Notes under the pieces: generated by a model
The model's input: only the letters and a program-made list of their open reading frames with translations
The model's database searches: none
Told to the model about the DNA's origin: nothing
NCBI RefSeq assembly: GCF_900129765.1
Contig: NZ_FQWU01000003.1
Location: 186,001-250,000 of the forward strand
Length of the DNA stretch: 64,000 bases
From: Massilia sp. CF038
GTDB lineage: Bacteria; Pseudomonadota; Gammaproteobacteria; Burkholderiales; Burkholderiaceae_D
Direction of reading: 5' to 3'
Made by a program: the position numbers and the translations under genes
Shown here: in pieces, positions 18,650 to 35,958 of the stretch
How positions within the stretch are numbered: position 1 is the stretch's first letter
How the letters are laid out: each line of letters begins with the position of its first letter

Positions 18650-18746
18650 CATCGCCCTCGCGAAGGTGCTGGCGCATGCGCCAGCCCCATACCATGTTAC
18701 CGAATTCGGACAAGTGGTATGGCCCCCCGCCTTCGCGAGGGCGATG
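18650..18746. repeat. Modular palindrome, copy A (97 bp, long form)
   Basis: The 17-bp outer arms (18650-18666 and 18730-18746) are perfect inverted copies. The core is CCGAATTCGG (18700-18709), and a second 8-bp stem CCATACCA/TGGTATGG (18687-18694, 18715-18722) sits inside. The left inner arm is 33 nt and carries CTGGCGCATGCGCCAG; the right inner arm is 20 nt. It lies between two converging genes. It matches copy B in mirror orientation and copies C and D in arms and core. Confidence 0.93.
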
Positions 18747-18784
18747 TGCTGGTGGCAGTCAGTCTGCCGCACCAGTTCATGCTG

Positions 18785-19318
18785 TCACAAAGGTCCGCGG
18801 ATCAGTGACACGTGCAAAAATTCCCTCTTCCCTTTGCGTCCGGCGCTATCGAGCTGGACTCGCGCCTGCAGGAATTCGACACCATCGCCCTCAACGGCAA
18901 CCGATTCGCCATAGGGCACATTGCGCTGCCCGGCCGCATCAAGCGTGTGGGCAGCCAGCGCCAGATCGAACCCGCTACGGTCAGCGAGTCGGTGCAGGCG
19001 CCGCAACAGCTGCGCCGCCTTCGCATATGCCGCAGACGGCGTAACCACGCCGGAGAAAAGATGAATTCCGCGAATGCGCAATTCGGTGACCACATACTCG
19101 CATCCGCCATGCCGGATATGGACCGTTTCACCGTTTGCAAGCGTCAGATTCTCGTCGGCTTCTTGCCCGGAGCGCGCGACAAAACGATGTTTCAGCACGC
19201 CCGCTTGCGCACTGCTAAAAGCAGGCTCGGGTTCGGCGCGCACGCAATCGCCGGCGCTGGCGCTTGGCGCGAGCGTGAGACCGCAGAAAAGCAGCAGAAC
19301 AAATAAATGTGATTTCAT
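18785..19318 (-). CDS. Hypothetical exported protein between two palindromes
   Basis: This 177-residue protein begins MKSHLFVLLLFCGLTLAPSA, a clear signal peptide with cleavage likely after SASA, so it is exported. The mature part has a few Cys residues and no family I recognise. The ATG at 19318 was preferred over an upstream start because it begins exactly at the signal peptide. Mirror-image 97-bp palindromes lie 38 bp after its stop and 91 bp before its start, isolating it from neighbouring genes. Function unknown. Confidence 0.6.
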   Translation of the reverse strand: MKSHLFVLLLFCGLTLAPSASAGDCVRAEPEPAFSSAQAGVLKHRFVARSGQEADENLTLANGETVHIRHGGCEYVVTELRIRGIHLFSGVVTPSAAYAKAAQLLRRLHRLADRSGFDLALAAHTLDAAGQRNVPYGESVAVEGDGVEFLQARVQLDSAGRKGKREFLHVSLIRGPL

Positions 19319-19409
19319 CAGGGCAGAATACAACATCGCCGTGCTGACGAGGATGACTGACTGACAGCCAGGGCTGCGAGGTGTTAAATAAACCCGCGTC
19401 GCAAAACAA

Positions 19410-19506
19410 CATCGCCCTCGCGCAGGCGGGGGACCATGCTATGTTCCCGAATTCGGAGAAGTGGTATGGGGCTGGCGCATGTGCCAGCACCTTCGCGAGG
19501 GCGATG
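19410..19506. repeat. Modular palindrome, copy B (97 bp, inverted relative to A)
   Basis: Outer arms are 19410-19426 and 19490-19506, with one mismatch between them. The core CCGAATTCGG is at 19447-19456. Here the left inner arm is the short 20-nt form and the right inner arm the 33-nt form with CTGGCGCATGTGCCAG, so the element is copy A reversed. Both copies share the preceding GCAAAACAAC or a close variant. It ends 10 bp from the stop codon of the microprotein downstream of fadH. Confidence 0.93.
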
Positions 19507-19516
19507 TGTTTGATGA

Positions 19517-19627
19517 TCAAGGTTGAACGACTTGCGAAGCGCCATCCCGGCATGGGTCGCTTTTCAAGTAAAGGCCCCAGGCGATGGCGCAGAAAACCAG
19601 CACGCAAACTGCGCCCACCCATCGCAT
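19517..19627 (-). CDS. Candidate 36-residue membrane microprotein coupled to fadH
   Basis: The fadH stop codon overlaps an ATG in the arrangement TGATG, opening a 36-codon frame that ends just before palindrome B. The peptide starts [20 protein letters not shown], one hydrophobic helix, followed by a short polar tail with a Cys (KSDPCRDGAS). The stop-start overlap favours translation by reinitiation after fadH. No family was recognised. The helix-like composition and the overlap are seen directly; that it is a real protein is inferred. Confidence 0.45.
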   Translation of the reverse strand: MRWVGAVCVLVFCAIAWGLYLKSDPCRDGASQVVQP

Positions 19628-34175: not shown

Positions 34176-34427
34176 ATGGCACTGCTCTCATTCCTGTTTC
34201 CCTCCAAGCCGAAAAGCGCGACGGCTGCCAAGGAGCGCCTGCAGATCATCATCGCACGCGAACGCAATCACCGCGGCGGGCCGGACTTTTTGCCGGCCCT
34301 GCACCGTGAACTGATCGAGGTGATTTCGAAGTACACCAAGGTCAGCGCCGACGACATCAAGCTCTCGCTGGATCGCCAGGGCAACCTGGAAGTGTTGGAA
34401 GTTAACGTGGTGCTGCCGGACGCCTAA
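34176..34427 (+). CDS. minE: Cell division topological specificity factor
   Basis: This 83-residue protein stimulates MinD ATPase and drives Min oscillation. It has the N-terminal membrane-targeting segment (MALLSFLF), the MinD-contact helix ([13 protein letters not shown]) and a C-terminal dimerisation fold. A GGAG ribosome-binding site sits in the end of minD, whose stop codon overlaps no more than one base before the ATG. Confidence 0.95.
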
Positions 34428-34442
34428 GTCCGGCCCGGCCGT

Positions 34443-34934
34443 TCAGGACGGCCGCACCACGATCAATTCATTGGCCACGCGGGCGCATGCCTCGACGTGC
34501 TCATACCCGAGTTTGCGGAACATGGTGAAGCCAATCGCCGCCGCTGCCATCTGCCCTGCAATCGGCACGAAACGCGAAGCCGACTTGGCCATCATCTTCA
34601 GGCCCACGCGCTTGAACAATTGCGCCAGCAATTCACGCGTGACGAGTTTACCCACCATCACCCCACCCACGCCGACTGCCACCTTGTAGGCAATCAATTT
34701 GTGGTTTGGCTGCATCTGGTCGATTTGCGCTTCGGTCAGGCCGAATGCCTCGTTGACATCGTCGACCAGTTTTTTGAACAGCGACAGGTCCGACACCACA
34801 TCCACGCCTGGAATCGGCACCGCCGACACACCGGCCGAGATGGCGGCGCGGCGCCGCACCATGCGCCGGCAACGTTCCCGGGTCGCTTCAATCTGGCTTG
34901 GATTGTCGGGAATCAAGGTCCAATCGGTACTCAT
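34443..34934 (-). CDS. Hypothetical protein with DUF697-like region
   Basis: This 163-residue protein converges on minE with 15 bp between stops. It has a basic N-terminal helix (RERCRRMVRRRAAISAG), followed by VPIPGVDVVSDLSLFKKLVDDVNEAFG, which resembles the DUF697/EcsC-type membrane-associated region, and several moderately hydrophobic Gly/Ala-rich helices (about residues 88-145). It may associate with membranes. No function can be assigned. ATG at 34934 was chosen over an upstream TTG. Confidence 0.65.
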   Translation of the reverse strand: MSTDWTLIPDNPSQIEATRERCRRMVRRRAAISAGVSAVPIPGVDVVSDLSLFKKLVDDVNEAFGLTEAQIDQMQPNHKLIAYKVAVGVGGVMVGKLVTRELLAQLFKRVGLKMMAKSASRFVPIAGQMAAAAIGFTMFRKLGYEHVEACARVANELIVVRPS

Positions 34935-35180
34935 AGGCTTCCCCAATTTAAAAATTTATTTCCGCAAAGACGCATCAAGAGCATTGAATTCGGGATTTAT
35001 AAAGTGTAACGTGTAATTTAGCGACGGGCATGCACGACACATAAAGTGTTGCCGGATGTAAATTTCTTTCTTGATTCGCCGTGTTACTTTGTAAAAGTCT
35101 GTTATATTCTGAGTAACTTATGAGTCTTGCAGGTAGGATTCCTCCTACAAAAACAAGCTTTACGTTCGACAACGCCTATT

Positions 35181-35870
35181 ATGAGAATTGCAGTCCTAGA
35201 CAACGACCGCAGCCAGGCAGATCTGATATGCCAAGTGTTAACTTCGGCAGGACATGCATGCCAGTCCTACGATAACGGCAAGGACATGCTGGCACAATTG
35301 CGAAAAGACAGTTTCGACATGCTGATTCTCGATTGGCAAGTCGCCGACCTCAATGGCGCGGAAGTACTGCGACGGGCCAAGGAAAAGATGTCGGCCACCA
35401 CCCCCATGATGTTCCTTACCAACAGTTCGGCGGAAGATGACATCGTCGCTGGCATTGCCGCCGGTGCTGACGACTACATGATCAAGCCGATCCGCCGCGG
35501 CGAACTGGTGGCCCGCGTGCAAGCCCTGCTGCGCCGCGCCTACCCGACCCAGAATGGCGCTGAACAACTGCAGTTCGGCCCTTACATCTTCGAAACCCGC
35601 CCCGGCCGGCTGCTGATGGATGGGGTGGTCATCGAAGTCACGCACAAAGAATTCTACCTGGCCCTGCTGTTTTTCCGGAATATTGGCCGTCCGCTATCGC
35701 GCGCCTACATTCACGAAGCGGTCTGGATCCGCGAAACCGCGGTGCCGTCACGCACCATGGACACCCATGTGTCACGTGTACGCAACAAACTTCAGTTGCG
35801 CCCGGAAAACGGTTTCCGCCTGGTGCCGGTGTACAGCTACGGCTATCGCCTGGAAAAACTCGGCGCCTAA
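35181..35870 (+). CDS. Orphan OmpR-family response regulator
   Basis: This 229-residue protein has a receiver domain (1-118) with phospho-acceptor Asp51 (LILDWQ) and Lys in MIKPI, and a C-terminal winged-helix DNA-binding domain (THKEFYLALLFF to YSYGYRLEKLG). No sensor kinase gene is nearby. The ATG at 35181 starts the receiver domain exactly, but no Shine-Dalgarno sequence precedes it; a small hairpin (stem GTAGGA/TCCTAC, 35133-35148) lies in the AT-rich leader. Palindrome D begins 5 bp after the stop codon. Targets are unknown. Confidence 0.9.
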   Translation: MRIAVLDNDRSQADLICQVLTSAGHACQSYDNGKDMLAQLRKDSFDMLILDWQVADLNGAEVLRRAKEKMSATTPMMFLTNSSAEDDIVAGIAAGADDYMIKPIRRGELVARVQALLRRAYPTQNGAEQLQFGPYIFETRPGRLLMDGVVIEVTHKEFYLALLFFRNIGRPLSRAYIHEAVWIRETAVPSRTMDTHVSRVRNKLQLRPENGFRLVPVYSYGYRLEKLGA

Positions 35871-35874
35871 GTTA

Positions 35875-35958
35875 CATCGCCCTCGCGTAGGCGGGGGCCC
35901 ATGCCACGCTTCCGAATTCGGAGAGGTGGAATGGGCCCCCGCCTCCGCGAGGGCGACG
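35875..35958. repeat. Modular palindrome, copy D (84 bp, symmetrical form)
   Basis: Outer arms 35875-35891 and 35942-35958, inner GC-rich stem, and core CCGAATTCGG at 35912-35921 reproduce the 17-20-10-20-17 layout of copy C. The last bases read GACG rather than GATG. It lies between the response regulator and hemA. Confidence 0.92.

Follow-up and report, generated by a model that had tools for sequence, protein, structure and literature searches.

Four palindromic elements are scattered over positions 18650 to 35958 of the window, a 64-kb stretch of the Massilia sp. CF038 genome (contig NZ_FQWU01000003.1, positions 186,001 to 250,000; Table 1). They are probably members of a REPIN-like population (REPIN, REP doublet forming hairpins), i.e., protein-free elements made of two inverted 27-nt repetitive extragenic palindromic (REP) units (CATC tag, 8-bp stem, GNAG loop, CCA or CTA tail) facing each other tail to tail across a short core that is conserved in part. 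The copies were found where the original prediction, made from the sequence alone, had placed them, two of 97 bp and two of 84 bp, with the layout it had described: 17-bp outer arms (0 to 2 mismatches), an exact CCGAATTCGG core in 4 of 4 and inner arms of 20 or 33 nt. The 33-nt inner arm belongs to the left half of copy 1 but to the right half of copy 2, making these two copies mirror images. The CCGAATTCGG sequence occurred exactly four times in the window, every time as the centre of a copy.

As predicted, none of the four copies lay inside a called gene. Copy 1 is flanked by convergent genes, the upstream one being a ketoacyl-ACP synthase III-like gene, while copies 3 and 4 are flanked by co-directional genes (gene names from Pfam matches). 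Copy 2 lies downstream of a minus-strand FMN/NADH oxidoreductase gene, either between convergent genes or, if a 183-aa open reading frame at 18785-19336 is counted, between two minus-strand genes. This reading frame had no Pfam match and was missed by the codon-usage gene caller; we think that it is a real gene. Immediately behind copy 3 (32262-32350), about four imperfect tandem units of about 23 nt (GCGAACGCGATGGGGTGGATGAC-like) were noticed by eye.

Table 1. Position and anatomy of the four REPIN-like copies in the window
Feature	Position	Strand	Remark
Copy 1	18650..18746		97-bp doublet, left arm in the long (CATG-hairpin) form
Copy 1, left outer arm	18650..18666	+	CATCGCCCTCGCGAAGG
Copy 1, swapped-in hairpin	18668..18685	+	7-bp stem GCTGGCG/CGCCAGC, CATG loop
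Copy 1, core	18700..18709		CCGAATTCGG
Copy 1, right outer arm	18730..18746	-	
Copy 2	19410..19506		doublet of 97 bp mirroring copy 1, with the long form on its right side
Copy 2, left outer arm	19410..19426	+	one mismatch
Copy 2, core	19447..19456		CCGAATTCGG
Copy 2, swapped-in hairpin	19471..19488	-	CATG loop, one stem mismatch
Copy 2, right outer arm	19490..19506	-	
Copy 3	32174..32257		84-bp doublet, 14 nt past the stop codon of a metE-like gene, ahead of minC
Copy 3, left REP unit	32174..32200	+	tag CATC, stem GCCCTCGC/GCGGGGGC, loop GAAG, tail CCA
Copy 3, core	32211..32220		CCGAATTCGG
Copy 3, right outer arm	32241..32257	-	one mismatch
Copy 4	35875..35958		84-bp doublet with a response regulator gene on one side (stop codon ends 35870) and hemA on the other (start 36053)
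Copy 4, left outer arm	35875..35891	+	one mismatch
Copy 4, core	35912..35921		CCGAATTCGG
Copy 4, right outer arm	35942..35958	-	two mismatches

Copy number and anatomy of the doublets

The genome-wide search called for by the original prediction returned abundant further copies. Doublets with exact, GCCC-type arms (CGCCCTCGCG-N45..75-CGCGAGGGCG, a pattern that is its own reverse complement, so that both strands count the same places) occurred at 130 places in the 5.66-Mb genome, and a looser arm pattern, also taking GTCC-type arms, returned 250 doublets, while the reversed control of either pattern had no match. Together with the restriction of CCGAATTCGG to the copies, these counts argue that the palindromes of the window are not due to chance. 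A 400-kb sample, defined by coordinates over four contigs, held 28 tail-to-tail doublets, two pairs in head-to-head order and 12 arms standing alone, of which at least two were chance matches within genes; extrapolation gave about 400 doublets for the genome. The family thus consists of several hundred small repeats, built as paired REP hairpins. The rare head-to-head pairs of the same REP are separated by a short spacer (L176:7780-7824 and L177:17251-17297).

Across 84 distinct copies, length ranged from 72 to 104 bp. The stem types of the two arms agreed within a copy in 76 of them and were mixed in eight, against about 33 mixed copies expected by our arithmetic if arms were drawn independently, so that the doublet seems to be inherited as one unit, with arms exchanged now and then. 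Whole copies also formed tandem arrays of 3-4 copies (L080:9700-10226, L074:10385-10754, L170:4849-5278); tandem clusters were likewise reported for the REPINs of Pseudomonas fluorescens SBW25 (PMC3116915). The core, described as fixed in the original prediction, was so in the four copies of the window but not genome-wide: exact CCGAATTCGG was found in just 34 of the 84 distinct copies (29 of the 43 copies of 84 bp), and CCGAAGTTGTTCAG-type cores, defined by a loose pattern, in 22.

Each short arm is a 27-nt REP composed of tag, 8-bp stem, 4-nt loop and tail, stem and loop being given by DNA folding of single arms. Among 168 ends, the tag was CATC in 151, CGTC in nine, CCTC in four and another in four, and the loop was GAAG in 98, GGAG in 30, GCAG in 29, GTAG in seven and another in four (GNAG in 164). 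The tail was CCA or CTA: of 86 ends, 85 had C in column 25 and all 86 had A in column 27, while column 26 was T in 43, C in 42 and G in one. The stem is either GCCCTCGC/GCGGGGGC or GTCCTCGC/GCGGGGAC, and its second position changed together with its partner, as displayed by 107 C-G and 41 T-A pairs without a single discordant one among the 148 scorable arms of the 168 (the other 20 being long or otherwise unscorable). This paired change within the arm held also in the eight mixed copies, which carry one arm of each stem type.

The original prediction had also offered a relationship to miniature inverted-repeat transposable elements (MITEs). The copies would then be non-autonomous insertion-sequence derivatives whose 17-bp arms act as terminal inverted repeats. 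The arms and the length of the 84 copies would suit such an element, but each arm is a hairpin by itself, and no convincing target-site duplication was found: abutting direct repeats of 2-9 bp were not in excess in the 84 copies, save for 3-bp repeats set off from the end by one base (four copies vs 0.6 expected, with a maximum of four in 200 shuffles). On the evidence of arm folding and flanking repeats, a MITE is very improbable.

The long arm of copies 1 and 2 follows a different construction. Its outer 17 nt are retained, and a hairpin in fixed frame, with a 7-bp stem and a CATG loop, takes the place of the REP stem's 3' half (pattern CGCGNAGG-N7-GCATGC-N9-AT). This pattern matched 44 times in the Massilia sp. 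CF038 genome, 20 times in G002, nine times in G007 and once each in G005, G014 and G015; neither the remaining 11 members of the genus nor any of the controls had a match. Stems were compared in 36 of the 76 matches, the omitted ones repeating the same stems. Out of 20 distinct stem pairs, 13 were perfect over 7 bp and four had one mismatch, these 17 spanning five genomes, while three (one each in G002, G005 and G007) were mismatched at 3 or 5 positions, which suggests chance or decay. Stems as unrelated as GGGCTCG, GCTGGCG, GCAGTCG, GGAAACG and GGCGAGG were paired, which indicates that the letters vary under constant pairing, CATG loop and frame.

Usually a single arm is replaced. Among 23 candidates, 13 with 5-7 mismatches were dropped as chance CATG in short arms, leaving 10 of the 84 distinct copies with one long arm (at most one mismatch) and none with two. 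A GTCC-type copy with two long arms was observed outside these 84 (G000:C6:738311-738421, L207:211-321); such copies exist but are rare, and three further candidate places each turned out to be one doublet plus a neighbouring arm. Replaced arms devoid of CATG were also seen (GGTCCGACGATTCGGGACCC-like and GGTGCGACGCCTCGCGGCC-like, at L069:4226-4329 and L166:370-469), and such arms occur in G014 as well. The CATG-loop arm offers a natural experiment on which part of the doublet the enzyme reads.

Genomic placement and distribution in relatives

Doublets were located behind genes. In the 400-kb sample, where a simple codon-usage script of our own assigned 345493 bases to genes and left 271 intergenic regions, 27 of the 28 doublets were intergenic and only one reached into a called gene, over 29 bp at the predicted start, while 24 of 28 would be expected to do so. 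Neighbours were known for 24 doublets, of which 12 lay between convergent genes, 12 between tandem genes and none between divergent genes (3.2, 13.1 and 7.6 expected by bases, respectively). The lack of divergent placements had p ~1e-4 by bases and 0.007 by region count, values that are optimistic since copies of tandem arrays were counted singly. A stop codon lay within 30 bp of 16 of the 24 doublets. The 457-kb sample picked around copies gave +- 21, ++ 16, -- 12, -+ 0, in called genes 4 and at stretch ends 2 (55 entries including duplicates and a few weak hits). A behind-gene bias was reported for GTAG and CGTC REPs too (PMC3733652). Genome counts and placement exclude both that the element lacks further copies and that it falls equally within genes.

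Such placement could also reflect a host-owned, immobile RNA element, a 3'-end hairpin selected for mRNA stability or termination, and the original prediction had mentioned a role as transcription or decay signal. The position behind genes, with 0 of 24 doublets between divergent genes, and the high stability of the RNA folds computed for the four copies of the window (z -6 to -11) are in line with this role. However, the scan for intrinsic terminators gave 18 sites vs 18.5 in shuffles, one of them lying, on the minus strand, in copy 2's left arm, so that terminator-like sites were not in excess. No known RNA family of Rfam matched at gathering score between 17500 and 37500. Moreover, the element is absent from the regulator/hemA junction of G014, its strongly variable mirror positions do not covary, and doublet counts range from 250 to 0 inside one genus. 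A host-owned element is thus improbable.

The distribution of the doublets among relatives was patchy. Exact-arm doublets numbered 12 in G014 and two in G015, and were absent from the other 14 genus members, while the looser pattern was matched in five of 294 genomes of the family (250, 23, 6, 2 and 1 doublets). The canonical CGTC-type stem TTCCCGCGAANGCGGGAA had a nearly opposite distribution. Of 17 genus members, 13 carried it, in as many as 113 matches, G007 having both types; the Massilia sp. CF038 genome, G014, G012 and G013 had no exact match to it. Family-wide, this stem occurred in 85 of 294 genomes and 20 of 44 genera.

The junction between the response regulator gene and hemA is variously filled. 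Where the window has copy 4, G001 has a canonical CGTCATTCCCGCGAAAGCGGGAATCCA CGTC doublet, whereas the junction of G014, the nearest relative at this locus, consists of 24 nt without element. It is also short in G015, G011 and G009, and holds another sequence of similar length in G003, G016 and G012. At the metE/minC junction of G014, what is left looks to us like a shrunken remnant. G014 is listed as 48% complete and its relative of the transposase gene L017 (see below) contains four stops; its counts may therefore be low.

Copy number, intergenic placement behind genes, inverted doublets, compensatory change within each arm, presence or absence in relatives and the same layout with a canonical stem all bear out the REP/REPIN-like reading of the original prediction. 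In G002, the partner of the long arm is a canonical-type REP arm, which suggests that the CATG-loop arm probably predates the stem dialect of the window. It is tentatively proposed, as a rather doubtful reading, that a whole REP population switched dialect within one genus, from the canonical CGTC stem to a CATC/GYCC stem with perfect pairing within arms, while the tail-to-tail layout and the exchangeable CATG-loop arm were kept. If so, layout rather than sequence would be inherited, arms would be swapped as modules, and the enzyme reading them would tolerate or even drive wholesale replacement of the stem.

Among described systems, the copies resemble CGTC-1 REPs (PMC3733652) by their 8-bp stem, 4-nt loop, CCA-type tail and 5' tag, by their intergenic position behind genes and by the occurrence of homo- and heterodimers. 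They differ in the tag (CGTC, TGTC or CCTC in CGTC-1; CATC in 151 of 168 ends here, with CGTC or CCTC in 13), in the first stem bases (AT in CGTC-1; GC or GT here) and in dimer orientation (mainly head-to-head in CGTC-1; 28 tail-to-tail vs two head-to-head here), and since all three traits fail they were not filed as CGTC-1. The tail-to-tail spacer, variable in CGTC REPs (PMC3733652), is replaced here by a partly conserved core. The SBW25 REPINs (PMC3116915) share the inverted REP doublet as unit, the extragenic position, the tandem clusters and the presence in the genome of genes for REP-associated tyrosine transposases (RAYTs); their spacing is 71-110 bp. Tag and stem are different, and a link to a RAYT is uncertain here.

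The replaced arm recalls P. putida and P. fluorescens, where a degenerated REP unit is joined to an unrelated hairpin in many copies (PMC3733652), but here the geometry is fixed, the paired letters vary and usually one arm is concerned. As in GTAG REPs and their TnpA-REP (PMC8266576), a hairpin is accompanied by a tetranucleotide, the opposite strand carrying GTGS near the hairpin; this putative counterpart, read from the sequence, stands 5 nt away on the opposite strand, unlike the GTAG one, located at or within two bases of the stem, and it is replaced in some relatives (GTTC in G007). The population is therefore REPIN-like and of a REP type related to CGTC but distinct from it, with a conserved alternative arm; the kind of element is known, the novelty being the version of stem and tag and the differently built replacement hairpin. 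Among the titles listed by the literature search, none deals with REPs of Massilia or Janthinobacterium; two Janthinobacterium genome notes matched "rayt" once each. PMC3733652 contains no mention of Massilia, Janthinobacterium, Oxalobacter or Herminiimonas, and a term search of PMC8049555 gave no match.

Proposed mode of spread and candidate transposases

The REPIN-like copies would move in the form of single-stranded hairpins, with a RAYT/IS200-type Y1 transposase (HUH, tyrosine) that would read tag plus hairpin and do the cutting and pasting in trans. Recombination may exchange arms between copies, giving the mixed and long-arm versions, and selection would purge copies from genes and promoters and spare those behind stop codons. 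Once transcribed, the latter would form very stable hairpins at the 3' end, and these may slow down 3' exonucleases.

The Massilia sp. CF038 genome encoded three Y1 transposases (PF01797; L016, L017 and L018), all below the 80-bit cut-off of the NCBIfam model REP_Tyr_transpos (51.8, 71.2 and 67.1 bits, the L018 protein being scored without its first residues). The RAYT gene of L017 (L017:1471-2172) has one long-arm copy 105 bp upstream. The 16-mer of this copy's arm occurred 68 times in 857 kb, and the commonest 16-mer (92) was another part of the same repeat, both counts being inflated because copies guided the choice of half of the 857-kb sample. Different repeated 16-mers border L016 and L018, namely GGGGTCAGACCTCAAT (15 occurrences in 857 kb) and GGGTCAGTCCCGGCAA (7). 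These flanks resemble transposase genes bordered by terminal inverted repeats, and GGGGTCAGACCTCAAT fits the GGGGWSAS motif (PMC3733652). These repeated units, of GGGTCAG type, lie at L016:1324-1376 and 2164-2216 and at L018:746-928. The nearest L017-type RAYT loci were from Massilia, with 74-80% identity; no relative of solved structure was found by sequence at E 0.1.

Several results weigh against the reading of the copies as a mobile REPIN-like population served by such an enzyme. Excision or transposition was not seen, the data being presence or absence between species, and no target-site signature was found in the 84 copies except for an outer flank rich in A and C, which may in part be an unrecognised edge of the element. 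Mirror columns 14, 26, 29, 34, 36 and 37 of the 43 copies of 84 bp covaried no better than shuffles, whereas SBW25 REPINs show compensatory change between sides (PMC3116915). Columns 6 and 23, which lie in the arm stem and vary in 3 of 86 ends, displayed a slight mirror association (p 0.022 and 0.046), which would follow from a tendency of the two arms of a copy to share their type. Pairing within arms without mirror covariation indicates that two separate hairpins are maintained; the long fold of the whole element is a consequence of the two inverted copies.

The remaining points against it concern the partner gene. No exact or one-mismatch arm was found within 1500 bp on each side of 38 related RAYT loci of named genomes, and among 48 Y1 loci of the genus L017 alone had such a REP at a distance of 450 bp or less. 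At the other loci the few hits were, in our reading, loop-only matches lacking the stem. Distances were rough, with wrong or partial frames for some loci (L103, L108, L111, L115, L118 and L184 among them), and the genus had 56 PF01797 places, of which seven, all fragments, were left out. Relatives of L017 were found in 289 of 294 family genomes against 85 with canonical REPs, under a cut-off of 1e-40 that admits two of the three Y1 genes of Massilia sp. CF038, so that a few low-scoring genomes may count another RAYT. Of the five genomes without L017 relative, three are under 75% complete and two still hold canonical REPs, numbering one or two; one genome of this pair is only 68% complete. With 28 doublets per 271 intergenic regions in 400 kb, the adjacency of copy and L017 could be luck. 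As for the RAYT partner sought by the original prediction, the genome has three Y1 genes and one copy upstream of L017, but the link does not extend to relatives.

It is possible, though somewhat less likely than not, that the L017-type RAYT, an old and mostly single-copy Y1 transposase, reads CATC/CGTC hairpins in trans and that REP dialects change with it. The upstream copy points to this gene, and the different repeats around the other two Y1 genes make L017 the natural partner. The L017 sequence also retains HLH and RYIE, the latter being presumably the tyrosine motif. Opposed to this are the adjacency at only one of 39 loci examined and the distribution described above, with the RAYT far more widespread than the REPs and REPs in two of five genomes lacking it. 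L017 looks domesticated rather than mobile, as displayed by the presence of its relatives in 289 of 294 genomes, mostly with one match each, and by their conserved neighbourhood, the downstream gene being matched at 38 of 38 loci (two over just 80-90 nt).

Somewhat doubtful, yet conceivable, is a spread of the REPs without a Y1 enzyme of their own, either by the action of another protein or through copying by replication slippage and recombination. This would agree with a REP beside 1 of 48 genus Y1 loci and with the ten proteins encoded beside five tandem arrays, none of which is a transposase (two further listed arrays were left out). The genes examined at the 48 loci were however all Y1 (PF01797), and a single genome per species may hide a link. 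CGTC-type REPs were described as a large class with no dedicated transposase (PMC3733652); since one adjacency among three Y1 genes proves little and no co-occurrence was found, that statement is not overturned here. With 250 or more doublets, canonical-stem relatives, an orthologous site that is empty in one relative and differently filled in another, and only three PF01797 genes, this genome is a good place to seek the enzyme of CGTC REPs.

Apart from the doublets, two nearby stretches of the window (911-1210 and 3518-3817) were 66% alike and probably correspond to paralogous genes.

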